A stretch of 22,259 nt of DNA from a virus: positions 1 to 22,259 of IMG/VR virus record IMGVR_UViG_3300023284_002524. The stretch is one strand, 5' to 3'. Positions 3,089-22,259 of the stretch are shown one piece after another. The notes under the pieces are model-generated. The model had not been told where the DNA came from. It saw nothing but the letters and a program-made list of their open reading frames with translations, and did not search any database. Each line of letters starts with the position of its first letter. The first letter of the stretch is position 1. The translations under genes were made by a program, and so were the position numbers.

Positions 3089-3654
3089 TGGCAAGTTCAC
3101 GTAGCACTGGTTGGCGAGATGAAGATCGTAACAAACCTGAATGGCTACAGAAACTACGTAGTGACTATTCTGTCTCGCTTCATCCCAAATACACCCAATT
3201 GCAAGCATGGAGCAGAGCAGCTATAGCCTATCAAAAGCTCTACGATAAGACAAATAAAAAGACAGCTGAACACTTTGATGTAAATCTGAGTCGTTATGAG
3301 CGGCATAAACGCTCCATCGCTGGCAAAGAATGGGGAGAGAAGATTGAGAAGATAACAGAAGATCCCAATGAAGTTACAAGGCTTGTGTTGCAATCTGAGG
3401 GCCTCGGTTTGGCATTGGATCAATTCGTTTTGTATGAGGGCGCCAAAAGCAAAGGCGATTTCGCTACTGCGCACAAGATAGGCAAGACCCTGTTAGATTA
3501 TGCAGATCTTGGGCCTAAGAAGATTAGAGATGATCAGCGTATGACACCTCAGATCATAATCAATATAGCTCGTGAAGACATGTTAGCTACACCCATAGTT
3601 GAAGCGGAATATACACTTGTCAGCGAAAGCACAACCACAGCTCTCCTTCCATAA
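3088..3654 (+). CDS. terS: Probable terminase small subunit
   Basis: A 188-residue protein directly upstream of the large terminase and overlapping it by 56 nt. Small terminases bind the packaging-start site and hand DNA to the large subunit. Residues about 45-75 (AYQKLYDKTNKKTAEHFDVN and following) resemble a helix-turn-helix. The middle is helical and charged, which suits an oligomerisation core. The C-terminal stretch MTPQIIINIAREDML resembles the terminal segments seen in many small terminases. The identification rests on position, size and architecture, because this subunit is poorly conserved. Confidence 0.6.
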   Translation: MASSRSTGWRDEDRNKPEWLQKLRSDYSVSLHPKYTQLQAWSRAAIAYQKLYDKTNKKTAEHFDVNLSRYERHKRSIAGKEWGEKIEKITEDPNEVTRLVLQSEGLGLALDQFVLYEGAKSKGDFATAHKIGKTLLDYADLGPKKIRDDQRMTPQIIINIAREDMLATPIVEAEYTLVSESTTTALLP

Positions 3655-5278
3655 AGGCGATGAGACCTGGCATCATTTGCGTGAGCTGGCGCAAAATGAT
3701 CTATGGTGGCTTAACGAGAAGGTATTAGGTCATGGCCCTATCCCGATGCGACATGAAACGCATCTTGCGTTGCTCCTCTTTGCCCAAAGACGTACAGGAA
3801 TCCCTGAAGTGGATTCTGCGCGAGTCCAGAGAATACTCGTTCCAAGAGAGTACGGCAAGTCAACAACCATTACAAAAGCTAGGACCCTGCAAAACATACT
3901 CAAAGACCCTAACCATAGAGTCGGAATTGCTAACGAGACTCTCCTCCTCGCGAAGGGCTTTCTTGGAGAAATAAAAGCGGTATTTGAGCAAAATGACCTC
4001 ATCAAGCAATTATTCCCTGAGATTGTCCCAGAGAACTTTCACGATACCCTCTGGAGCGCAGACTCCATCAACGTCAACAGAACCAGTCATCGTAAAGAAC
4101 CAACCATCCTTGCTGCTGGGGTTGATAGGTCGATTACAGGCTACCACATGGCGGAATGGATCCTCGACGACATCATGTCCAACGAAGCCGCAGAGAACGC
4201 AAGAACCGGAAGCTTTAGCGAGATCGAGAAAATCAAGCGCTGGATGAATCGCCTAGAGCCGCTATGCGACGGCCCAAACACACCTATAACGATTATAGGC
4301 ACTCCCTGGTGGGAAGGAGATTGCTACGAATATGCTGAAGAGTTGTGGGGCCATGACGAGAAGGTGCAAACATTTGTTTGGATCATCAAGCTACCTTCAG
4401 GAGAAACCCAACACATAGAACTAACAGTTCAGGGCGATCTAGCCACCTATCGCAGGCCTGTCGTTGTCGATGGTAAACTAACGTTTCCTGAGAAATGGCC
4501 CTGGCATCGCATCGAGCAGATGCAGAAGAACGACATTCAGCTCTATGCAGCCAATCTCATGCTTGAGCCTAGCAGCGAAGTAGTCAGGGATTTCAAAGAT
4601 GGCTGGCTCAGAACTTATGATTGGGACTCACCAGGAAAGCGTTTGCGCTATCGCGATCAAAAAGGAGAAATGCGCTATGTCATGGTTCATGAGATGGATA
4701 CTGTCATGTCTGTCGATCCAGCAATTAGCCAAAGCATTAAAGCTGACCGCAGTGGTATTGTGGTTAGCGGTACTCTTGATGGCGTTCACCATATTCTTCT
4801 CGAAGCTCTTGCTGAAAGGCGCGGTGTACATGATCTTTGCAAGATAATCAAAGAGCTTCACAATAGATATAAATGCCGCAGGATCTACATTGAGAGCATC
4901 GCTTATCAAAAGGCGCTTTTCCAAATCTTGCAGCATGATCGCTTGCCAGTCATCGAAGTAAAATCTCATTCAGAAAAAACCAAAGAAGTACGCATTCGTG
5001 GCCTAGAGCCATTCTTTCGTCAGGGCAACATTTACTACAACACCAGACAGATAGATTTTCTACGCGAATATCGCAGTTTCTCTCGTGGCCGTTGGGATGA
5101 CATTCTCGACGCTTGCTCCATGCTCACAGATGAATGGGGCAGAACAATAGGATCAGCTCCTCAAGCTGATAGCAGAAAGAACATAGATGACGCAGCCCTC
5201 GAAAAAATCAAGAAGTGGTCAGCCGGACATAGATATTCATCGCCGCGTCGAGGAAGAGATAGACGCGATAGTCACTGA
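3599..5278 (+). CDS. terL: Terminase large subunit (packaging ATPase-nuclease)
   Basis: This 559-residue protein is the DNA-packaging motor and headful nuclease. ATPase domain: Walker A variant VPREYGKST (81-89), Walker B WILDD (187-191), and coupling motif IIGTPWWEGD (232-241). RNase H-like nuclease domain: VMSVDPA with Asp373, RIYIES with Glu432, and RWDDILDA with Asp501 and Asp504, which together form the expected acidic metal-binding set. The length is typical. The start is uncertain. TTG at 3599 overlaps the small terminase by 56 nt and has no strong ribosome site, and no in-frame ATG occurs before Met50. The C-terminus is Arg/Ser-rich (SSPRRGRDRRDSH) and overlaps the next gene by 92 nt. 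All diagnostic motifs are visible, so the identity is secure. Confidence 0.95.
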   Translation: MKRNIHLSAKAQPQLSFHKGDETWHHLRELAQNDLWWLNEKVLGHGPIPMRHETHLALLLFAQRRTGIPEVDSARVQRILVPREYGKSTTITKARTLQNILKDPNHRVGIANETLLLAKGFLGEIKAVFEQNDLIKQLFPEIVPENFHDTLWSADSINVNRTSHRKEPTILAAGVDRSITGYHMAEWILDDIMSNEAAENARTGSFSEIEKIKRWMNRLEPLCDGPNTPITIIGTPWWEGDCYEYAEELWGHDEKVQTFVWIIKLPSGETQHIELTVQGDLATYRRPVVVDGKLTFPEKWPWHRIEQMQKNDIQLYAANLMLEPSSEVVRDFKDGWLRTYDWDSPGKRLRYRDQKGEMRYVMVHEMDTVMSVDPAISQSIKADRSGIVVSGTLDGVHHILLEALAERRGVHDLCKIIKELHNRYKCRRIYIESIAYQKALFQILQHDRLPVIEVKSHSEKTKEVRIRGLEPFFRQGNIYYNTRQIDFLREYRSFSRGRWDDILDACSMLTDEWGRTIGSAPQADSRKNIDDAALEKIKKWSAGHRYSSPRRGRDRRDSH

Positions 5279-5621
5279 GTGGCTTCCAAGGCTCAATCTG
5301 AGGGACTGGAAGTTCACAGTGAAGTTCGATGAGAAGGATGCCTTAGCAACATGCGACTGTGACACAGACTATCTAGAAGCTACGCTTCACTTCAATGTGC
5401 CCAAGATCATTAATCTGAAGCCAGATCTGGAGGAGCTTGTAGTTCACGAGCTAAGCCATCCCTTCAATTGGCGCCTCTGGGATTATGTGAATCAATTCAT
5501 CAATGGCAATAAGGCTCAAGAGTGGATTACGCGCAGCCTCTTTGAAGAAGCCACAACACGCATTGGCAATTCTCTGGTTGACACCAAGAAGAGTTTGGAG
5601 AAGCAATATCAAAAACAGTAG
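5187..5621 (+). CDS. HExxH zinc metallopeptidase-like protein
   Basis: A 144-residue protein with a VVHELSH motif (zinc ligands His87 and His91, catalytic Glu88). Downstream FEEATTRI (Glu120/Glu121) is a plausible third ligand, as in SprT-like and other gluzincin-type peptidases. The N-terminal half has a strand pattern typical of such folds (WKFTVKFDEKDALATC, EATLHFN). No signal peptide is present, so it acts in the cytoplasm or virion. It begins inside the 3' end of terL, overlapping by 92 nt, and no later in-frame ATG is available before the motif. Its role is unknown. HExxH genes beside terminases occur in other uncultured phage genomes, and no separate prohead protease is seen here, so a maturation role is possible but unproven. 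Confidence 0.7.
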   Translation: MTQPSKKSRSGQPDIDIHRRVEEEIDAIVTEWLPRLNLRDWKFTVKFDEKDALATCDCDTDYLEATLHFNVPKIINLKPDLEELVVHELSHPFNWRLWDYVNQFINGNKAQEWITRSLFEEATTRIGNSLVDTKKSLEKQYQKQ

Positions 5622-6694: not shown

Positions 6695-6855
6695 TCTGGT
6701 TTTGGATTGCGGTTGGCTATTTGGGTGCTGTTGTGATTTTAGCTGAAGCCATCTCGTTAGTATTAAATGGTCTTCCTCCTAAGAAGCCGCCGTTAAAAGA
6801 AATGCGAAGAGCCTCAAAGAAATTCTGGCTCAAAGAATATGCCGCAAAGCGTTAG
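6691..6855 (+). CDS. Small single-span membrane protein
   Basis: A 54-residue ORF starting in an ATGA overlap at 6691. An N-terminal hydrophobic segment (MIWFWIAVGYLGAVVILAEA) is followed by a proline pair and a basic tail (PPKKPPLKEMRRASKKFW). It overlaps the portal start by 17 nt. Topology would be N-out with a basic cytoplasmic tail. Function is unknown. Confidence 0.5.
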   Translation: MIWFWIAVGYLGAVVILAEAISLVLNGLPPKKPPLKEMRRASKKFWLKEYAAKR

Positions 6856-8728
6856 CTGGGGCAAAGGGCGCAAGGCCGCATTTGAGCAATGGTTTGCTCA
6901 AGAGCTACACAACGCTCTAGCTGACCGCCAAGGTGTAGAGCGTAAATGGGCCGATTGGATGGAGCAATATGATGCTCCTAGACGCGCTGCCGCAGACTTT
7001 CCCTTCCCTGGTGCGAGCAATGAAGAACTTCCTCTTACCGCTATGCATTTTGAGCCGGTTCTTGCTCAATTCATCCAAAGTATTCATGCTCCTCGCAATA
7101 TCTGGACCGCTATTGATCTATCTGGTCAGTTCACGGATAGCGTCAATGCTATCACAGAGTATCTCACGGTCATCGACCAACTCTTCCTAAAGATGCGCAG
7201 AGTAAATCAACGCGCTTTCCCAGACTTAATCTTGTTAGGAACTGCTGCGTGGCATCCAACTTGGTTGTTCGAGAGAAGGAAACAGAAGAAGTACGACGAA
7301 AACCTCAACGTTATCACAGAGACCGTCATCATAAACCAGCCCACAGTCCAGCACCTGCCACTGGGCGACTTCATCTGGCCAGCCAACGCATGGGATATAG
7401 ATCCAGACGCTCCCGTCGCACCAGCACGTTGGGTTGGCCATCGCATCAAGCTTACTGAGAATCAGCTTAGGGCTCGCGCTAAAGGCCAAGAGCCCTTCCT
7501 GCCCAACTACGACTCTGCCATAACCAAGACCGTTCTCACCCGTGAGAGCGAAGAAGAAGAGATTGTTGAAGGCAAGACAAGAGACATTGATGAGCTTAGG
7601 CCCAGCTTTGATCGCAAGATTGAACTGTTCGAGATTGAGTGTCGCTGGGATGTCGATGGTGATGGCATAGACGAAGATGTCATCGTTGTGTGGTATCAAA
7701 AGATGGGTGTCATTCTCAGAGCCATCCACAATCCCTGGATGCACGGCAAGAGGCTTTACGAGGTTGAGCAATACATAAAGACCTTCTCATTGTTAGGCAA
7801 AGGTATCGCCTCGATGGATGAGATGATGCAGGCTGTGGGGAGCAAGATTCTCAATGCTCAAATAGATAATGTCCTGTTGGCGAACACTCGTATGTTTGGC
7901 TTCCCACAAGGTGCCATGATCAGGCCTGACGAGCCTATATATCCAGGCAAGGGTTGGCCTCTAGGCCCAGGTGAGAAAATCCAAGAGATCAAAATGGGAG
8001 AGGTCTATCCTAGCCTCTTCCAAGTATTGCGGGAAATTATCACTATGGGCGAACAACGCACTAGCGTGAGCGAGCTGCGCCAGGGCGACATAAGCGGCTT
8101 ACCCAGCCGCACTCCAGCCACTAGCGTGTTGAGCTTGCTCAGGGAAGGCAACAAGAAATTCGACATGATCATGGGCAACATGCGCGCAGGGGCATTGGCA
8201 AATATAGGCAAACGTGTGTTCCAGATGATTGCTCAGCGCCATCAAGGTGGCGACAGCAAATGGGCAGCTCTAGCTCGTGAGAAGCTAGGTGAGGAAGATG
8301 CCGCTAAAGTAATCTCCGCTCTGGATGAGCCTATGGTTGTCCTAGAGGACGGCTTAGGCTTCGAGATGACTGCGACTAGCGGCCAGGTCAACAAGGAAGT
8401 TGAAAAACAATCGCTGATTGGCCTAGCACAGTTTCTCGCTCAAGCCTATCCTCAGATGAACCAAGCCGCTCAGCTTATGGGCGATCAACAGTTAGCGGCA
8501 CAGACAGCAGTCTCAACATTTAACGGAGGCAGAGAAGTGTTGATGCGTTTGCTCGAAGCCTTCGACATCCAGAACCCGGAGCGCTATCTGCCACCGGCGG
8601 CTGGCCAGCAAGGAGGAGCCCAGCCCGGCGCTCCCGGTGAGGTGCCTCAATCCAATCTCGGCGGCCCCGGAGGGCCTCAGCCGCTTGGCGCTGACCAGCT
8701 TGGGGCGCTGATAGGCATAGGACAATAA
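6839..8728 (+). CDS. Portal protein (podovirus type)
   Basis: A 629-residue protein matching podovirus portals in size and character. The portal forms the dodecameric ring at one capsid vertex, through which DNA is packaged and ejected. Supporting stretches: an early FPFPGASNEELP loop, a long helical wing-like region, ECRWDVDGDGIDEDVIVVWY typical of portal clip/wing strands, and the helical stem region MDEMMQAVGSKILNAQIDN. The tail is Gly/Pro/Gln-rich (AAGQQGGAQPGAPGE). It follows the terminase module and precedes the scaffold and capsid, as expected. It overlaps the preceding small gene by 17 nt. Confidence 0.88.
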   Translation: MPQSVSWGKGRKAAFEQWFAQELHNALADRQGVERKWADWMEQYDAPRRAAADFPFPGASNEELPLTAMHFEPVLAQFIQSIHAPRNIWTAIDLSGQFTDSVNAITEYLTVIDQLFLKMRRVNQRAFPDLILLGTAAWHPTWLFERRKQKKYDENLNVITETVIINQPTVQHLPLGDFIWPANAWDIDPDAPVAPARWVGHRIKLTENQLRARAKGQEPFLPNYDSAITKTVLTRESEEEEIVEGKTRDIDELRPSFDRKIELFEIECRWDVDGDGIDEDVIVVWYQKMGVILRAIHNPWMHGKRLYEVEQYIKTFSLLGKGIASMDEMMQAVGSKILNAQIDNVLLANTRMFGFPQGAMIRPDEPIYPGKGWPLGPGEKIQEIKMGEVYPSLFQVLREIITMGEQRTSVSELRQGDISGLPSRTPATSVLSLLREGNKKFDMIMGNMRAGALANIGKRVFQMIAQRHQGGDSKWAALAREKLGEEDAAKVISALDEPMVVLEDGLGFEMTATSGQVNKEVEKQSLIGLAQFLAQAYPQMNQAAQLMGDQQLAAQTAVSTFNGGREVLMRLLEAFDIQNPERYLPPAAGQQGGAQPGAPGEVPQSNLGGPGGPQPLGADQLGALIGIGQ

Positions 8729-11173: not shown

Positions 11174-12073
11174 ATGACTATTACAGCAACCCAATTCTTG
11201 CTGCTGCTTGAGCCCGGTCTCCGCAACATCTGGCACGAGTCTTGGCCGCCAAGAGAACTCCAGTTCGTTGATGTGTTCAACATTGGCGATATGGCTAAGG
11301 CCACAGAGACAGATGCCAAGATGGGCGGGTTCGGTGCTCTAAACGAGCAAGCCGAAGGCGAAAGCATAATCTTCCAAGATCCGCTGACGCCTATCACTCG
11401 CGAATACACTTATCGTGTATTTGCAAGTGGCTACCGCATTACAGATCGCATGGTTAGGGACGAGCTTTATGGGCAGGCAGAGCGCTTTGAGCGCGATCTT
11501 ATGTCTGCCGTCAGAGACAACCAAGAGATTCAAGCTTGGGATCTTCTGAATAACGGCTTTGCCACAACCAATAACACCGGCTTCGACGGCCTATCACTCT
11601 TCTCCACTGCGCATACGCGCTTGGATGGAGGCGCAAACCAGGCCAATAGGCCCGCAACAGACGCTGCACTCAGTTTGAGCGTCTTGCACGATGCCATCAT
11701 TCAGTTCCGCAATTGGGTCAATGAGCGTGGTAGGCCTTTCCAGGCTAATCCAAAGCTCCTAATTGTGGCGCCTGAAGACATGATGGTAGCGGATGAGTTG
11801 CTCAACAGCAACTTAAAGCCGGGCACTGCTAACAACGACCTCAACGCCGTCACGCGCTTTGGACTCAGCTTCAAAGTCGTAGACTACCTCACTTCAACCA
11901 CTGCTTGGTTCCTTATCGGTGACAATCACGATATGAACTATCTCTGGAGATTTAGACCAGAGAGTGGCTCAGAGGTAGACTTTGATACTGATATAATCAA
12001 GCGCAAAGTTCGTCAGGGCTATGCCACTGGATTCGGTGAGTGGCGCGGTACATACGGCACGACTGGCGTGTAA
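11174..12073 (+). CDS. Major capsid protein, Mu gpT-like
   Basis: A 299-residue coat protein. The order of motifs resembles the Mu-like major head subunit (gpT) family, an HK97-fold variant: a charged early region (QAEGESIIFQDP), the strand and helix REYTYRVFASGYRITDRMVR, GFDGLSLFSTAHTRLDGGAN, LLIVAPEDMMVADELLNS, and C-terminal FGLSFKVVDYL / WFLIGDNHDM. It has a strong ribosome site AGGAG 8 bases before the ATG. It is shorter than many coats but normal for this family. It is followed by a strong hairpin. A Mu-type coat within an otherwise podovirus-like layout suggests modular exchange or a distinct lineage. Confidence 0.85.
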   Translation: MTITATQFLLLLEPGLRNIWHESWPPRELQFVDVFNIGDMAKATETDAKMGGFGALNEQAEGESIIFQDPLTPITREYTYRVFASGYRITDRMVRDELYGQAERFERDLMSAVRDNQEIQAWDLLNNGFATTNNTGFDGLSLFSTAHTRLDGGANQANRPATDAALSLSVLHDAIIQFRNWVNERGRPFQANPKLLIVAPEDMMVADELLNSNLKPGTANNDLNAVTRFGLSFKVVDYLTSTTAWFLIGDNHDMNYLWRFRPESGSEVDFDTDIIKRKVRQGYATGFGEWRGTYGTTGV

Positions 12074-15679: not shown

Positions 15680-16732
15680 TTGGCCTTTGTATATCGTCGC
15701 CCACCAAGATTTCAGCGCAAACGCCCTTGGATAGGTACATTACCAGGTGTTGGACAAACTGTCACAGCCGAACTTCAAGATAGCTTCACGTTTTCAGACA
15801 GCCTAGCTCGTGATGCAGAGAACACGCGAGATCTGAGCGATGCATTTACGTTCTCTGACAATCTTTCCAGAGATGGAGAGTTTACACGCAGCCTAAGTGA
15901 CTCTTTCACATTCGCAGACAATCTTGATCGTGTCAGACATCTTATTAGAGAACTCCAAGATAGTCTAACATTTTCAGATGCTATAGATAGAGATGTAGAA
16001 AACACTAGAGATCTAAGTGATGTTTTCATCTTCGTGGACAACTTAGATCATACCACAGAACTTGATAGAGTTCTACAAGACATATTCACATTCACTGATA
16101 ACCTATCGCGTGATTTAGAAGATGCCACGCGCCTGCTTAGTGATATATTCACCTTTAGTGATGCTATTGATAGAGACCTCGAACTCACACGAGATCTTCA
16201 AGATAGTTTTACCTTTGTAGACGATTTAGATGCGGCAGCTGCAAGGACTGTTGAGCTTACAAGATTGCTTCAAGATGTCTTCACATTTGCTGACCAGATT
16301 ACTCAATCAACAGAGAACCAGAGACTCTTGCAAGATGTTTTCACTTTCTCAGATCAACTTGAGCGTGACCAGGAGCTGACAAGAGACCTTCAGGATTCAT
16401 TCACATTCAGTGAAAACCTGGAGATCACGCGCCAGCTCGATAGGACGTTGCAAGACATATTCACCTTTGCAGACAATTTAACCTACAATAGACATCTCAT
16501 TAGATCTCTTTCAGATAGCTTCACCTTTACAGACTCCTTACAACGAGATCAAATCCTCACACGCTTCCTTAATGATATCTTTGGTTTCACCGATAATCTG
16601 ACTTCCAGTGCGGAAGAAGCTGTTGCCAGATTTGGAATCAAAGACCTCAAATGGTTATATAGAATGAGGAAGTATCGCCGTCACATGGGTGAACGTATAG
16701 AGATTTTTAATATTCCTTGGTGGAGACATTAA
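15680..16732 (+). CDS. Tandem 20-residue repeat protein (probable fiber or surface protein)
   Basis: A 350-residue protein that starts at TTG 15680, three bases after the previous stop. After a basic N-terminus (YRRPPRFQRKRPWIG), residues 32 to about 316 are 14 tandem copies of a 20-residue unit, consensus L(Q/S)D(S/I)FTFSDNL-RD-ELTR. All copies are 20 residues except one of 21 and one of 24. Each unit is one short strand (FTF) flanked by charged, turn-forming residues, so a solenoid or extended fiber is likely. The C-terminal ~35 residues (KDLKWLYRMRKYRRHMGERI and on) are basic, aromatic and non-repetitive, perhaps an attachment or capping domain. Related LSDSFTFSD-type repeats occur in other phage and archaeal-virus proteins, from memory. 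It is followed at once by the tailspike gene. Confidence 0.75.
   Translation: MAFVYRRPPRFQRKRPWIGTLPGVGQTVTAELQDSFTFSDSLARDAENTRDLSDAFTFSDNLSRDGEFTRSLSDSFTFADNLDRVRHLIRELQDSLTFSDAIDRDVENTRDLSDVFIFVDNLDHTTELDRVLQDIFTFTDNLSRDLEDATRLLSDIFTFSDAIDRDLELTRDLQDSFTFVDDLDAAAARTVELTRLLQDVFTFADQITQSTENQRLLQDVFTFSDQLERDQELTRDLQDSFTFSENLEITRQLDRTLQDIFTFADNLTYNRHLIRSLSDSFTFTDSLQRDQILTRFLNDIFGFTDNLTSSAEEAVARFGIKDLKWLYRMRKYRRHMGERIEIFNIPWWRH
15773..16627 (+). repeat. 60-bp coding tandem repeat (14 units)
   Basis: DNA counterpart of the protein repeat. The period is 60 bp, with insertions of 3 and 12 bp in units 6 and 8. Units share TTCAC(A/C)TT-type cores but are diverged at synonymous positions, so this is an old, selected repeat rather than a recent slippage product. 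Confidence 0.8.
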
Positions 16733-17968: not shown

Positions 17969-18640
17969 ATGCCAAGCTACACTTTATCTGAGCTTCTCAG
18001 CTTCTCAACAGCCTTCGCAGGTCGCAGAGATGACATCGACCAAAGTGATGTCAGTTATATGGTCAACATGAGCTACATAGAAGTCGCAGACATCACCAAG
18101 CACAAACTCACAGAGAAGATAGCGATCAGCTCAACGACTAGCGGTGAGAACCGCATTGACCTGCCCGCAGATTATGACAGTATAATCAATCTCTCTCGCT
18201 TGACCAGTGATCAAGGCAGTGGGAAGACGCTAGTAAGAATTAGCGCTTCACGCGCAGATGACACAGGCTTCCAGCCCAACGGCACTCCTCAACGCTATGT
18301 ACTCTTTAATGACTTCTTAGAAATCCATCCCTCACCAGACTCTGGTTACTCATTGCAGCTGCGCTATCACAGCCAGATCACAGATATGCTAGCGCTCACG
18401 GATGTGCCCTCGCTGAGCACTCCCTGGCGCAAAGCAATCCTGTATAAGACCATAGCTGAAATCTATGCTTTCACCGAGAACCCAGAAGGCGAGATTATAG
18501 CCGCCAGCCGTTACAACAACTACGTCCAACAGCTACGTGAGGATGAAGGCAAGCGCCAGCATGACGAGAGCGGCATCAGGTTTAGTCATAGCTATAAGGA
18601 TGTCAGGCAAAGAAGCAAACGCTCCTTTGATGTAGTGTAG
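17969..18640 (+). CDS. Head-tail adaptor (gp6/gp11-like) protein
   Basis: A 223-residue protein resembling phage adaptors that sit under the portal and connect it to the tail (T7 gp11 and P22 gp4 type). Characteristic order: a helical N-terminus with QSDVSYMVNMSYIEVADITK, the strand-turn RIDLPADYDSIINLSRLT, GTPQRYVLFNDFLEIHPSPD, SGYSLQLRYHSQI, LSTPWRKAILYKTIAEIYAF and a basic helical C-terminus. It begins at the base after the tailspike stop. The gene lies about 9 kb from the portal and after the tailspike, an unusual position for an adaptor. Confidence 0.7.
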   Translation: MPSYTLSELLSFSTAFAGRRDDIDQSDVSYMVNMSYIEVADITKHKLTEKIAISSTTSGENRIDLPADYDSIINLSRLTSDQGSGKTLVRISASRADDTGFQPNGTPQRYVLFNDFLEIHPSPDSGYSLQLRYHSQITDMLALTDVPSLSTPWRKAILYKTIAEIYAFTENPEGEIIAASRYNNYVQQLREDEGKRQHDESGIRFSHSYKDVRQRSKRSFDVV

Positions 18641-19996
18641 ATGACCCATTGGAGTCAAGTCACCAGTAGCGGCAACACCTTCGAATCTGGTGACACAAGC
18701 TCTTCACAAACCTGGGACGGCAGCGACTCCACCACCAATCAGTTTTTCGTCGTTAGCATCACCACATCTATAGTCACCTCAATCGAGACATCCATCACCA
18801 CGACTGTCAGCGGCGACACAGTCAACGCCCTGAGCCAGGACACCATTGGCTTAGTCTATCGTGAGATGTGGAATGACATCTCTGCCGCCAGCGATGTCAC
18901 CGGCAGTCGCTGGACATTGGGAGCTGGCTCTTGGGATGTGAGCCAGCGCAGTAATAATACAGAAATAGCAGGTGGTGGTGGCGCAGAGCCAATAGATTAT
19001 ATCTTCAGTGATTTCGGTGCTGTGCCTAACGACTTCGTGGCACAGAGCAATATCGAGATCAGAGAATTAGGCGCCAGCAGCGATCAGTTCTGGGTTGGCG
19101 TTAGTAATCCATCTTTATCAATTCAGGGTGATGAAGCCTACTACATGATCATCAGGGCTGCACCTCAAGATGACATCTTCATTACCAAGCGTGTGGGTGG
19201 AACTAATGAGTTTGTGGCCACGGATGTACTTGGAGAAGGCATCGGTTTAGCTGAGATCTGGTCTATACGCCTAAGCGGTGAGAGCAGTGATGGCACCTAT
19301 GACCTAGAGATGTTCGCGGATCAAGTCAGCTTCATGACTGAGCTTGAAGTGAACCTTACAACAAGGTTGACCCATAGCGATGCCACACCGCCAGCTTTAG
19401 GTAATCATGCAGAGATTGCAGCACTCAGTGATACCATCTTTGACGAGCAATGGCTTTGCGGCAGCGTCATTACAGTGCGTGGTTTGCTCAATAACTTCAG
19501 TGTCAAAATAAGCAGCTTGGACACTTTGACATCAACTGGCGGCTCTGATGTAACGCATAGTGTTCGCACTTTAGCTATGCCATTCAGTGCTATTACTGTC
19601 TTCGACAGTAATGATAGCGCTCTGACATTCCATCATTTCGATATCCTGAGTGAGCGCACATCAATATTTGGCGGCGATACTTGGACATTCGCACAGACAC
19701 TACCCAGCGAGAGCACAAGTGAAACAACCAGCCTGACCACAAGTGAAGTCACTAGCGAAGGCTTCTTACTGCTTAGTGGCTCCACACAGACCTGGAGTGG
19801 CAGCACAACCTCAGATTACTTCTTCCACGGAATGAAGGCTTTCCAAGATGGTTCTGGTGGGATAGATTTCATTCACGCCGTAGCATCTCCCGCCAAAGGT
19901 GGCCCATACTGGCGTGTGGCCACTGACAGAAATATCATGCTGCGCAGTCGCAGCAACATCACCTCAGCGCAAAGCATTGTGGAAGGAGTGCCCTAA
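18641..19996 (+). CDS. Virion protein with a lectin-like central region and Ser/Thr-rich ends
   Basis: A 451-residue protein. The central region (residues about 85-270) has the strand pattern of a concanavalin/LamG-like sandwich (SRWTLGAGSWDVSQRSNNTE, FVAQSNIEIRELG, YYMIIRAA), which often binds sugars. It is flanked by Ser/Thr/Gly-rich stretches, with SSSQTWDGSDSTT near residue 21 mirrored by GSTQTWSGSTTSD near residue 387, suggesting a duplicated linker or strand. Probably a tail fiber or receptor-binding component. The sequence starts one base after the adaptor stop, and no catalytic motif is evident. Confidence 0.6.
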   Translation: MTHWSQVTSSGNTFESGDTSSSQTWDGSDSTTNQFFVVSITTSIVTSIETSITTTVSGDTVNALSQDTIGLVYREMWNDISAASDVTGSRWTLGAGSWDVSQRSNNTEIAGGGGAEPIDYIFSDFGAVPNDFVAQSNIEIRELGASSDQFWVGVSNPSLSIQGDEAYYMIIRAAPQDDIFITKRVGGTNEFVATDVLGEGIGLAEIWSIRLSGESSDGTYDLEMFADQVSFMTELEVNLTTRLTHSDATPPALGNHAEIAALSDTIFDEQWLCGSVITVRGLLNNFSVKISSLDTLTSTGGSDVTHSVRTLAMPFSAITVFDSNDSALTFHHFDILSERTSIFGGDTWTFAQTLPSESTSETTSLTTSEVTSEGFLLLSGSTQTWSGSTTSDYFFHGMKAFQDGSGGIDFIHAVASPAKGGPYWRVATDRNIMLRSRSNITSAQSIVEGVP

Positions 19997-20160
19997 TGAC
20001 ACCATCGCTCATGGTTTTGATTGGCAGCAACACAATAGCTATCATATTTGGTGCAGGCGTTTTGTATCAACGTGTCAAAGGCTTGGACAAGCGGCTTGAA
20101 AGGGTTGAGAATTTACTCAATGGACACCTTTATAGATTAGGCGATCACGATGCCTCTTAG
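19996..20160 (+). CDS. Small membrane protein with coiled tail
   Basis: A 54-residue ORF preceded by a good ribosome site (GGAAGGAG) and overlapping the previous stop as TAATG. A hydrophobic segment near residues 5-23 (LMVLIGSNTIAIIFGAGVLY) is followed by an amphipathic charged helix (QRVKGLDKRLERVENLLNGH). This architecture resembles XhlA-like or spanin-like small membrane proteins of phage lysis modules. It overlaps the next gene by 11 nt. Confidence 0.55.
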   Translation: MTPSLMVLIGSNTIAIIFGAGVLYQRVKGLDKRLERVENLLNGHLYRLGDHDAS

Positions 20161-20455
20161 CAGCTTCACAGGCCTTCCAGCAATCCCCGATCCTTCAGAA
20201 GCTACTCCAGGTCTGTTTGATGCTCGTTATAGCGTTATAAGCCAGAATCTGGATCAGATAAATAGCGATGTCAGCAGCTTTCTGTCAACGGATAGAATTC
20301 ATGTCAGCGGCTCCACAATAAGAATTGCCACTCCATTCACACCCGCCAGCGGCACAGCCTCTGGCAATACAGGTGAAATTGTCACTGACGCAAGCTACAT
20401 TTATTACTGTACCTCAGAAGACAGTTGGAGCCGTGCCACACTTGAGACTTTCTAA
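20150..20455 (+). CDS. Small tail-associated protein
   Basis: A 101-residue protein. Its C-terminus, GNTGEIVTDASYIYYCTSED followed by SWSRATLETF, matches the common ending of phage tail and fiber proteins (G-x-GxIxxDxxYIYxCxxxxxWxRxxLxxF/W). The N-terminal half (LPAIPDPSEATPGLFDARYS) is a short helical arm. Probably a virion component. Confidence 0.65.
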   Translation: MPLSSFTGLPAIPDPSEATPGLFDARYSVISQNLDQINSDVSSFLSTDRIHVSGSTIRIATPFTPASGTASGNTGEIVTDASYIYYCTSEDSWSRATLETF

Positions 20456-20744
20456 GAATGCTTTCCTAGCATTCACCGCAGTTGGTGTGTTGCTCGTGCT
20501 CAGCCAATGTGGAGATCCCTATGCGATAGATACACGCCTGTTTCCAGGCTCAGCAGAATGTGACAAGATCGCACAAAGCATTATACACACCGACAATGAT
20601 GTAGATTTGAATGAATTAGAAAGATTAATTAATATATATAATGAACATTGTATAGCTTCCAGAAGTAAAGGTGATGGAGATGATGAAATTCCCAAAGCTG
20701 ATGATACCCATGCTGATGCTGCTCACAGTATCAGTTTGCGGTGA
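20442..20744 (+). CDS. Putative secreted or lipoprotein, first of an overlapping pair
   Basis: A 100-residue protein. TTG 20442 gives MRLSKNAFLAFTAVGVLLVL, a strong signal peptide followed by SQC. The Gln before Cys is not a canonical lipobox, so lipid attachment is uncertain. The mature region is acidic and helical (DLNELERLINIYNEHC) and ends in a Lys/Asp-rich tail. The gene overlaps both neighbours. A 6-bp hairpin, GAATGC/GCATTC (20456-20474), lies at its 5' end just after the upstream stop. The frame extends upstream, but the signal peptide decides the start. A spanin or exclusion role is possible. Confidence 0.5.
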   Translation: MRLSKNAFLAFTAVGVLLVLSQCGDPYAIDTRLFPGSAECDKIAQSIIHTDNDVDLNELERLINIYNEHCIASRSKGDGDDEIPKADDTHADAAHSISLR

Positions 20745-21174
20745 TGCGCCAACAGCACCTCAAAGTTTAGCTGAATTTCAAGCAATCCGTTTGAAGGTTT
20801 GTCCACCTAATGCCACAGCAGCAGCGCAGTGTATAAAAGAAATAGAATCCAACGATGTCTTCTGGACAGACAGTGTTTATGTGGGCGACATCTTTTGGAC
20901 TGGAGCAGAATATCTTAATGTATCGGTCTTTTGGACAGATCCTAAGAATTTAAATTGCTTTGATGGTCTCTGCGCTGTTTCCAAGAGGTTTGGTATCTTT
21001 GATGCCACCAGTGATAACTTCAAAGACATAGTCTTCGGCTTTCGAGCACCTGGAGAATATGAACTGTTCTTGGCCCTTGCAAATCTACGTTTTGAATCTC
21101 TAGCCGATACAAGCTTCTTCCTCACCGTGGCTGGTGATGGGCCGCCTGCACCTCAAGGCATTATAGTGTACTAG
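20680..21174 (+). CDS. Putative secreted or lipoprotein with FWTD repeats and Ig-like domain
   Basis: A 164-residue protein starting inside the previous gene. ATG 20680 has AAAGG 8 bases upstream; a GTG at 20671 is an alternative. The N-terminus MMKFPKLMIPMLMLLTVSVC is a Met-rich signal peptide with a Cys that would be acylated only if SVC is accepted as a lipobox. A cysteine and three imperfect repeats of about 12 residues follow (DVFWTDSVYVG, DIFWTGAEYLN, VSVFWTDPKNL). The C-terminal ~70 residues (FRAPGEYELFLALANLRFES) resemble an Ig- or PKD-like sandwich. Both genes of the overlapping pair have CGD at the putative mature start. Function unknown; envelope-located. Confidence 0.55.
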   Translation: MMKFPKLMIPMLMLLTVSVCGDAPTAPQSLAEFQAIRLKVCPPNATAAAQCIKEIESNDVFWTDSVYVGDIFWTGAEYLNVSVFWTDPKNLNCFDGLCAVSKRFGIFDATSDNFKDIVFGFRAPGEYELFLALANLRFESLADTSFFLTVAGDGPPAPQGIIVY

Positions 21175-21223: not shown

Positions 21224-21736
21224 ATGCGTTTGTTTTTGGCAATTTTGGCAATATTCGCTACTGCCTCCATGTCGCCTGCCCAGCAACGAGATACGCTGAA
21301 TTTCGACACTGGGCTGCTCATTAACCTGAACTTGATGTATGAGCAATTTGAAACAGAATATTATTTATGCATAGAAGGCATTATGGAGAGCAGGACACTC
21401 CATCTCGTAGATTTCAGGATGCCGCCGCACAAGACATCTACACCTTCCCGCGTAATTGTATCACATGGTTGTGACCTGTATAAAAACATTGTCGCCGTCC
21501 TTCATACCCACGTCGATGATCGCTGGAGTTCCTGCTATCTCTCGCCGTCTGATACCCAAAATGTGCTTAAGGACAATTATATCATCACGATTGTCCAATG
21601 CGGTCCCACGCGCTATGCGTGGTGGTTCAAGTCTCAAGTACATCGCCATCGTCTGATGACCCCAATTCCATATTTCCCTACGCCGTCTTTACCGGCTATA
21701 CCAAGACAAACAGTTCAATTTGACTTGAAGGATTAA
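21224..21736 (+). CDS. Secreted JAMM/MPN-like metallopeptidase candidate
   Basis: A 170-residue protein. MRLFLAILAIFATASMSPAQ is a signal peptide with probable cleavage after a small residue near 19-20. The remainder follows the JAB/MPN layout: a glutamate-containing strand (YYLCIEGIM, Glu51 candidate), AVLHTHVDDRWSSCYLSPSD carrying His94, His96, Ser107 and Asp110, then YIITIVQCGPTRYAWWF. The JAMM signature is HxH-x7-SxxD; here the spacer is 10 residues, but all ligand positions are present. Cys83, Cys104 and Cys126 could bridge outside the cytoplasm. JAMM domains cleave isopeptide bonds, and one occurs in phage tail protein K next to a peptidoglycan peptidase. An exported stand-alone copy in a phage is unusual. 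Ribosome site GGAGG. Confidence 0.65.
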   Translation: MRLFLAILAIFATASMSPAQQRDTLNFDTGLLINLNLMYEQFETEYYLCIEGIMESRTLHLVDFRMPPHKTSTPSRVIVSHGCDLYKNIVAVLHTHVDDRWSSCYLSPSDTQNVLKDNYIITIVQCGPTRYAWWFKSQVHRHRLMTPIPYFPTPSLPAIPRQTVQFDLKD

Positions 21737-22259
21737 ATGGAGCCACGCATTACAGCCTTTGACATTGAAGCCACTGGCCTCAAAAGTAGCTTCGGACATA
21801 TTATATGTTGTAGCTTCCTCGATATCCTCGACCCTAAAGCCAAACCTGTTACTCTCCGCATAGACGATCAGAAGTATAGATGCCGAAGGAAATCTGATGA
21901 TAGTAAGCTTGTGGCTGCGATCAAGGCTTACTTAGAAAATAGTTGGATGTGGTGTGGATGGTATTCAAAGCAATATGATATCATGTACATCAATGGCAGA
22001 CTAATTGCTGCTGAGCTAGCACCTGTCGAGAAGAGGATGCATCTAGATCTCATTTATTTCTCTAGAATGCTCAAGCTGCATAGCAGCAGACTAGATAGTG
22101 TCGCTAAGACATTTGAGCTGAAAACTCAAAAGACTGATATCTTGCCTTCGACATGGTTAGAGGCAGGAGAAGGTGATGAAGACGCTATAAATTATGTCGT
22201 TAAGCATTGTCAGGCTGATGTTGAAGTGCTGCGGGATGTGTTTCCTCTTTTGATGCCTT
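21737..22259 (+). CDS. DnaQ-like 3'-5' exonuclease, N-terminal part
   Basis: An incomplete gene that runs off the right edge after 174 codons. It starts at ATG 21737, directly after the previous TAA. Motif Exo I is FDIEATGL (Asp9, Glu11). Exo II is GWYSKQYD (Asp81), with LDLIY (Asp104) nearby. Exo III is YVVKHCQADVEVL (Asp161), matching the RNase H-fold exonuclease family of the RNase_H_2/YprB type. Such enzymes proofread or process DNA in phage replication. Whether it is stand-alone or the N-terminus of a polymerase cannot be decided from this window. Confidence 0.8.
   Translation, partial: MEPRITAFDIEATGLKSSFGHIICCSFLDILDPKAKPVTLRIDDQKYRCRRKSDDSKLVAAIKAYLENSWMWCGWYSKQYDIMYINGRLIAAELAPVEKRMHLDLIYFSRMLKLHSSRLDSVAKTFELKTQKTDILPSTWLEAGEGDEDAINYVVKHCQADVEVLRDVFPLLMP

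Follow-up and report, generated by a model that had tools for sequence, protein, structure and literature searches.

A predicted exported JAMM-family protein encoded by an environmental phage and related to chromosomal genes of Gemmatimonadota

RESULTS

A divergent JAMM-family protein in a phage fragment

The open reading frame (ORF) at positions 21224-21736 of an environmental phage fragment encodes what is, judged by its sequence, a divergent member, carried by a phage, of an exported JAMM family without a name. The original prediction of an exported, stand-alone JAMM-like phage protein is thereby supported by homology, by the conservation of residues, and by the fold of a relative. What is new here is the export of a phage JAMM protein together with its cellular family; the JAMM superfamily itself is known. 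No description of the exported family was found in the literature searched, which did not cover most subscription papers.

The window, that is, the whole stretch of DNA analyzed, is a linear fragment of 22,259 bases and constitutes the complete IMG/VR record IMGVR_UViG_3300023284_002524. The genes considered here are as follows.

3599-5278, terminase gene (phrog_38)
6839-8728, portal gene
11174-12073, major head protein gene
17969-18640, tail-adaptor-like protein gene
17969-20455, tail genes upstream of the JAMM ORF
19996-20160, ORF of 54 aa with one helix, just upstream of the JAMM ORF
20448..20744, plus strand, second upstream lipoprotein-like ORF (LSKNAFLAFTAVGVLLVLSQCGD...), taken from the ORF list, start uncertain
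20683..21174, plus strand, upstream lipoprotein-like gene (MKFPKLMIPMLMLLTVSVCGD...), with a relative in Gemmatimonadota genome G160
21224..21736, plus strand, gene of the predicted exported JAMM-family protein, 170 aa (coordinates include the stop codon), 43% identity to G162:C84 (E = 5e-18)
21737..22259, plus strand, DNA polymerase exonuclease-like gene (phrog_403, E = 2.5e-14), continuing past the window end

The JAMM ORF follows the last tail-like ORFs and precedes the exonuclease gene, and all of these are on the plus strand. It begins with ATG just downstream of a GGAGG-like site, and its stop codon is immediately followed by the start codon of the exonuclease gene. By terminase, the nearest annotated phage is a podovirus from Manatee Spring, with 34% identity. 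The terminase gene of podovirus MW202554 (L047, 32008-34542, minus strand) is interrupted by an intein-like insert (CSRPDMRVLL...VGDSIMG). Two further ORFs on the plus strand of the window were noted. The one at 5187-5621, just after the terminase gene, encodes 144 aa with HELSHP, which partly resembles the HExxH zinc-peptidase motif, and it gave nothing better than E = 0.12 against Pfam. The other, at 15680-16732, encodes 350 aa made up of about a dozen degenerate 'LxDSFTFSDNLxR' repeats, which Tandem Repeats Finder did not detect.

Predicted signal peptide, active-site residues, and cysteines

The features assigned to the product of the JAMM ORF (hereafter, the window protein) are listed below; all are on the plus strand.

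21224..21280, predicted Sec signal peptide, residues 1-19 (MRLFLAILAIFATASMSPA), from sequence and hydrophobicity, with cleavage after S-P-A
21356..21358, E45, predicted catalytic glutamate, invariant in 39 relatives and aligned with the JAMM Glu of CSN5
21368..21370, C49, invariant cysteine (100% conserved), with C83 as its probable partner
21470..21472, C83, invariant cysteine (100% conserved)
21503..21511, H94-T95-H96, predicted zinc ligands, both His 100% conserved
21533..21535, C104, predicted to form a disulfide with C126, 3 residues before S107 and 74% conserved; C74 of AfJAMM precedes S77 likewise (PMC300881)
21542..21553, S107-P-S-D110, predicted oxyanion-hole Ser (82% conserved) and third zinc ligand Asp (100%)
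21599..21601, C126, predicted partner of C104, 16 residues after D110; C95 of AfJAMM is 15 residues after D80 (PMC300881)

The predicted signal peptide is composed of Arg2, a hydrophobic stretch, and the S-P-A cleavage site, and its mean Kyte-Doolittle hydrophobicity is 2.7 over 12 residues, compared with values of at most 1.1 elsewhere in the protein. The Gemmatimonadota relatives also begin with a hydrophobic N-terminal segment. The mature part contains H94-T-H96-x10-S107-P-S-D110, and the predicted arrangement, a signal peptide followed by HTH-x10-SPSD with all JAMM ligand positions, was found in the sequence, with E45 as the acid. The ligand set (E45, H94, H96, S107, and D110) is complete and in fold order. 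The textbook JAMM consensus is EXnHS/THX7SXXD (PMC300881), and the window protein departs from this classical form (EXnH[ST]HX7SXXD) in having a spacing of 10, not 7, between HxH and SxxD. The HxH-to-Ser loops of relatives are longer, and one such relative, L065, still models as a JAMM fold. What the x10 spacing rules out is therefore no more than the narrow consensus.

Four cysteines (49, 83, 104, and 126) are present in the mature protein, not three as predicted. Their proposed suitability for an oxidizing compartment is supported, as two are invariant and one pair matches a disulfide of AfJAMM. That disulfide, C74-C95, joins the loop that precedes the active-site Ser77 by 3 residues and a strand that follows Asp80 by 15 residues (PMC300881). 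C104 and C126 of the window protein are located at S-3 and D+16, compared with S-3 and D+15 in AfJAMM, and by analogy the same staple would be expected here. C49 and C83, both invariant in the family, likely form a second pair.

The short motif alone is weak evidence for JAMM identity. H[STN]H-x7-12-SxxD occurred in 262 of 200,000 shuffles of the mature sequence (about 0.13%), and looser versions are also found in unrelated ORFs. The motif goes beyond chance because the ligand residues are invariant in 39 natural relatives and because of the fold of a relative.

Relatives of the window protein in Gemmatimonadota genomes

When the window protein alone was searched against Pfam, no match was obtained at E <= 10, and the gathering score of Prok-JAB (PF14464) was not reached. 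It had no match among all PDB sequences, no convincing match in NCBIfam, and none at E <= 10 among 50,697 phage records; neither NlpC/P60 nor lysin families were matched. PHROG 11661 was considered as the family and was dropped, as its match was weak (E = 0.18) and the JAMM-family profile did not match it. In IMG/VR, single-protein pattern scans with the window protein and its tail-adaptor and exonuclease neighbors found no relatives, the motif patterns HTH-x7-C-x-L-S and WHNHPW returned chance or unrelated matches only, and no candidate was confirmed from alignment-guided scans with synthetic (A1) and natural-sequence (A6) alignments. Phage and plasmid sequences were also searched by tblastn, for which the queries were two relatives, a synthetic consensus, and the window protein, and no convincing match was obtained. 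A terminase-guided search led to 10 distant phage contigs, and the JAMM gene was in none of the stretches of their DNA that were examined.

Relatives were identified in Gemmatimonadota. The seeds for the first relatives (A1, A4, and A5) were in part synthetic and were not database sequences. The last row of alignment A8 begins with mistyped residues, an error outside the domain. Seed A5, modelled on an exported JAMM-like type with 'ATWHNHPW', was used in a scan of Gemmatimonadota genomes and led to 13 natural loci, each encoding an exported protein of the same layout. A profile of these 13 natural relatives, from which the window protein was left out, matched residues 21-153 of the window protein with 24.3 bits, and no other six-frame ORF of the loci compared at that stage gave a significant match. 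With the window protein alone as the query, 25 of the 395 Gemmatimonadota genomes searched yielded a relative at E <= 0.01; the best was G162:C84 with 43% identity (E = 5.2e-18). The family profile matched 42 of the 395 genomes at E <= 0.001. Since direct searches with the window protein find relatives, the homology link is independent of the synthetic seeds, and our conclusions on the family are drawn from natural sequences and from these direct searches.

Among 39 distinct relatives, E45, C49, G52, C83, H94, H96, and D110 are invariant, and S107 and C104 are conserved in 82% and 74%, respectively; the E45 position is where each of them has the JAMM glutamate. When a 14-row family profile was searched against all PDB sequences, the top matches were only JAMM/MPN+ enzymes, namely CSN5 (E = 0.0012), RPN11, and archaeal homologs, and the Glu, HxH, Ser, and Asp of the family were in register with CSN5. 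Pfam Prok-JAB was matched by five of the 14 profile members (best E = 4e-7). The comparison with JAB/MPN profiles that the original prediction had suggested was negative for the window protein itself and positive for some of its relatives. The window protein has the mature-domain homology, the E-C-G-C-H-H-D set, and the N-terminal export signal that characterize the exported Gemmatimonadota JAMM family as defined here. In the tree, it sits on a long branch nearest to L109, and its composition is odd; given both, a changed activity is possible. Gemmatimonadota genomes were also seen to encode other exported JAMM-like paralogs, whose loops differ (HSHP...C, HTHPY, and HNHPP; L078, L079, L080, L120, L122, L106, and L115), and the exported JAMM group is therefore larger than one family.

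The AlphaFold2 model of the window protein, from an alignment of only 10 sequences, had a pLDDT of 44 and was unusable. For L065, which is 29% identical to the window protein, the model reached a pLDDT of 68.6 and a pTM of 0.69. JAMM/MPN proteins were at or near the top of the matches listed by Foldseek for this model, and among those listed by VIA-align the Z values were 11.7 with a Caldiarchaeum Rpn11 homolog, 11.2 with P. furiosus JAMM1, and 10.3 with AfJAMM. These results support a JAMM (deaminase-like) fold for the modelled relative.

Genomic setting of the relatives and probable origin of the phage gene

Several relatives sit on megabase contigs and are therefore cellular genes. Six relatives of the nearest group have one neighborhood in common; the neighbors of the closest single relative, G162:C84, differ. 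In another clade (L062-L074), the exported JAMM gene is part of a type IV pilus locus, where it is flanked by pilR/pilS-type genes on one side and by pilC on the other; it is encoded on the opposite strand, and pilC was found in 12 of the 13 loci. Among the loci compared, no functional partner was common to all clades. The nearest relatives of the window protein are housekeeping-type chromosomal genes, not phage lysis genes.

The phage lipoprotein encoded at 20683-21174 has a relative in G160 with 33% identity over residues 6-159 (E = 3.8e-9; tblastn E = 2e-9), and the same genome carries a JAMM relative 36% identical to the window protein. The JAMM protein and the adjacent lipoprotein both have relatives in one Gemmatimonadota order and thus both point to that order. 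No convincing relative of the lipoprotein-like ORF at 20448..20744 was found in the order of G162. Three observations speak against such a host. A terminase relative was present in just 1 of the 395 Gemmatimonadota genomes, nothing was found in Gemmatimonadota for the exonuclease-like protein, and the GC content of the phage is 47%, compared with about 65% in the relatives. From a sensitive search of this one phylum, we conclude that Gemmatimonadota are probably the hosts of the phage, that it probably has envelope genes of host origin, and that the JAMM gene was most likely acquired from a Gemmatimonadota host. The long branch is consistent with a transfer long ago or with rapid evolution in the phage. 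The JAMM and lipoprotein genes provide a gene-based hint at a Gemmatimonadota host for an otherwise unplaced environmental phage.

DISCUSSION

Proposed function

We consider it fairly probable that the window protein is a Sec-exported, single-domain JAMM/MPN+ zinc peptidase, derived from Gemmatimonadota, that cleaves a protein of the host envelope at a peptide or isopeptide bond. The basis of this proposal is family membership and a full active-site set, by homology or from the fold of a relative; zinc binding, disulfides, periplasmic location, and activity are inferred, and the substrate and the purpose, envelope modification rather than lysis, are guesses. The signal peptide would be removed and the protein would fold in the periplasm, where C104-C126, as in AfJAMM, and probably also C49-C83 would staple the fold. 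A zinc ion would be held by H94, H96, and D110, a water molecule would be activated by E45, and the oxyanion would be held with the help of S107. Cleavage of a peptide or isopeptide bond in an envelope protein may then change the host surface or envelope during infection. To our knowledge, the characterized JAMM enzymes act inside cells, mostly on ubiquitin-like conjugates. The present family is predicted to lie outside the cytoplasm with an intact active site and added disulfides, and its substrates must therefore be others than ubiquitin-like conjugates. An envelope protein is the preferred substrate, since the relatives are genes resident in cells and have to be tolerated during growth.

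An envelope-protein peptidase or isopeptidase is thus favored, and a cell-wall or lysis role is the main rival and is possible. As part of a lysis module, the protein would be an exported peptidoglycan endopeptidase that cuts peptide cross-links, doing the job of an endolysin or accessory lysin beside spanin-like small lipoproteins; we regard this as unlikely. The location of the gene would allow for such a role: it comes after the tail genes, lysis genes frequently follow structural genes, and a short way upstream are the 54-aa one-helix ORF (19996-20160) and two lipoprotein-like ORFs. The bonds cut by JAMM enzymes are isopeptide bonds, and the cross-links of peptidoglycan are isopeptide-like. 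However, we know of no JAMM enzyme that cuts peptidoglycan and of no endolysin with a JAMM fold, the relatives are not lysins but genes resident on chromosomes, where their neighbors are housekeeping or pilus genes, and the adjacent lipoprotein is related to a cellular protein rather than to a known spanin. The earlier remark that the window has no classical endolysin holds for the window proteins scanned, among which no known endolysin was found, but the window is only a linear 22 kb fragment, and the missing endolysin is therefore uninformative for function. Less likely again is a broader form of wall cutting, in which the secreted phage JAMM isopeptidase cleaves peptide cross-links of the host wall and the Gemmatimonadota family remodels the wall by the same chemistry. 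If true, the wall-cutting reading would be of much higher interest; the protein would then lyse the cell or open its wall with a fold that we know from no endolysin.

The pilus loci raise the idea that the protein interferes with type IV pili or other surface structures, by blocking or altering them, and thereby excludes competing phages after infection. This seems improbable: one clade of relatives does have its gene in a type IV pilus locus, with pilC in 12 of 13 loci, and two exported lipoprotein-like genes adjoin the JAMM gene in the phage, but the clades nearest to the window protein are without a pilus neighborhood, the gene is on the opposite strand in the pilus loci, and the window contains no pilus gene. 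The tail genes close by (17969-20455) would suit a structural protein of the virion or its tail, comparable to lambda tail protein K with its JAMM domain; this is a very improbable role for a protein with a signal peptide, no NlpC/P60 partner, no tail-protein similarity, and relatives that are cellular exported proteins. A chance resemblance in an unrelated exported phage protein could account for the lack of a direct family or PDB match and for a short motif that appears in about 0.13% of shuffles; against the 43% identity to relatives, the invariant ligand residues, and the JAMM fold of a relative, it is hardly credible. For the favored envelope-protein peptidase, the occurrence of the family both in Gemmatimonadota chromosomes, as a conserved gene, and in a phage offers two routes to function, and the window protein is short and easily expressed and tested.

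Comparison with known systems

Stand-alone JAMM proteins in phages are less unexpected than the original prediction held, in that BFVD contains short phage proteins named 'JAB domain' or 'metalloprotease' that match the JAMM-fold model. Those of Brevibacterium phage Cantare (123 aa) and Gordonia phage Yikes (149 aa; weak, E = 0.03) stand alone like the window protein, at very low identity; the surprise is thus confined to export and to the cellular family. Lambda tail protein K also has JAMM residues in a phage protein, and is a tail protein in which JAMM is fused to NlpC/P60. The window protein has a different architecture, being a 170-aa single domain with a signal peptide. The function of the JAMM domain of lambda tail protein K is given as unknown (PMC300881). 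LfgB, a JAMM protease from an E. coli cryptic prophage, is reported to degrade the antitoxin MqsA (PMC10846083). Both LfgB and the window protein are thus (pro)phage-borne JAMM proteins; the reported target of LfgB is intracellular, and no description of a signal peptide in it was found (PMC10846083).

The eukaryotic MPN+ isopeptidases CSN5 and RPN11 are the best PDB sequence-profile matches of the family, with catalytic residues in register, and differ in that they are intracellular, work in large complexes, and target ubiquitin or Nedd8. The deubiquitinating enzyme of the proteasome likewise has the JAMM fold. AfJAMM (AF2198, PDB 1R5X/1OI0; PMC300881) resembles the window protein in its ligand set and in the equivalent disulfide across the active-site loop, and the fold of the modelled relative aligns with it at a Z of about 10; by contrast, AfJAMM is archaeal, has the X7 spacing, is described as intracellular, and has no signal peptide. 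The closest counterparts are the exported Gemmatimonadota proteins (e.g., L109, L110, L111, and L062-L074), which share the signal peptide, the single domain, the pattern E...C..G...C...HxH...C.LS..D, the WW motif, and the C-terminal tail. Compared with these close relatives, the window copy differs in being carried by a phage, in its shorter HxH-to-S loop (10), in having Val instead of Pro after HTH, and in its long branch.
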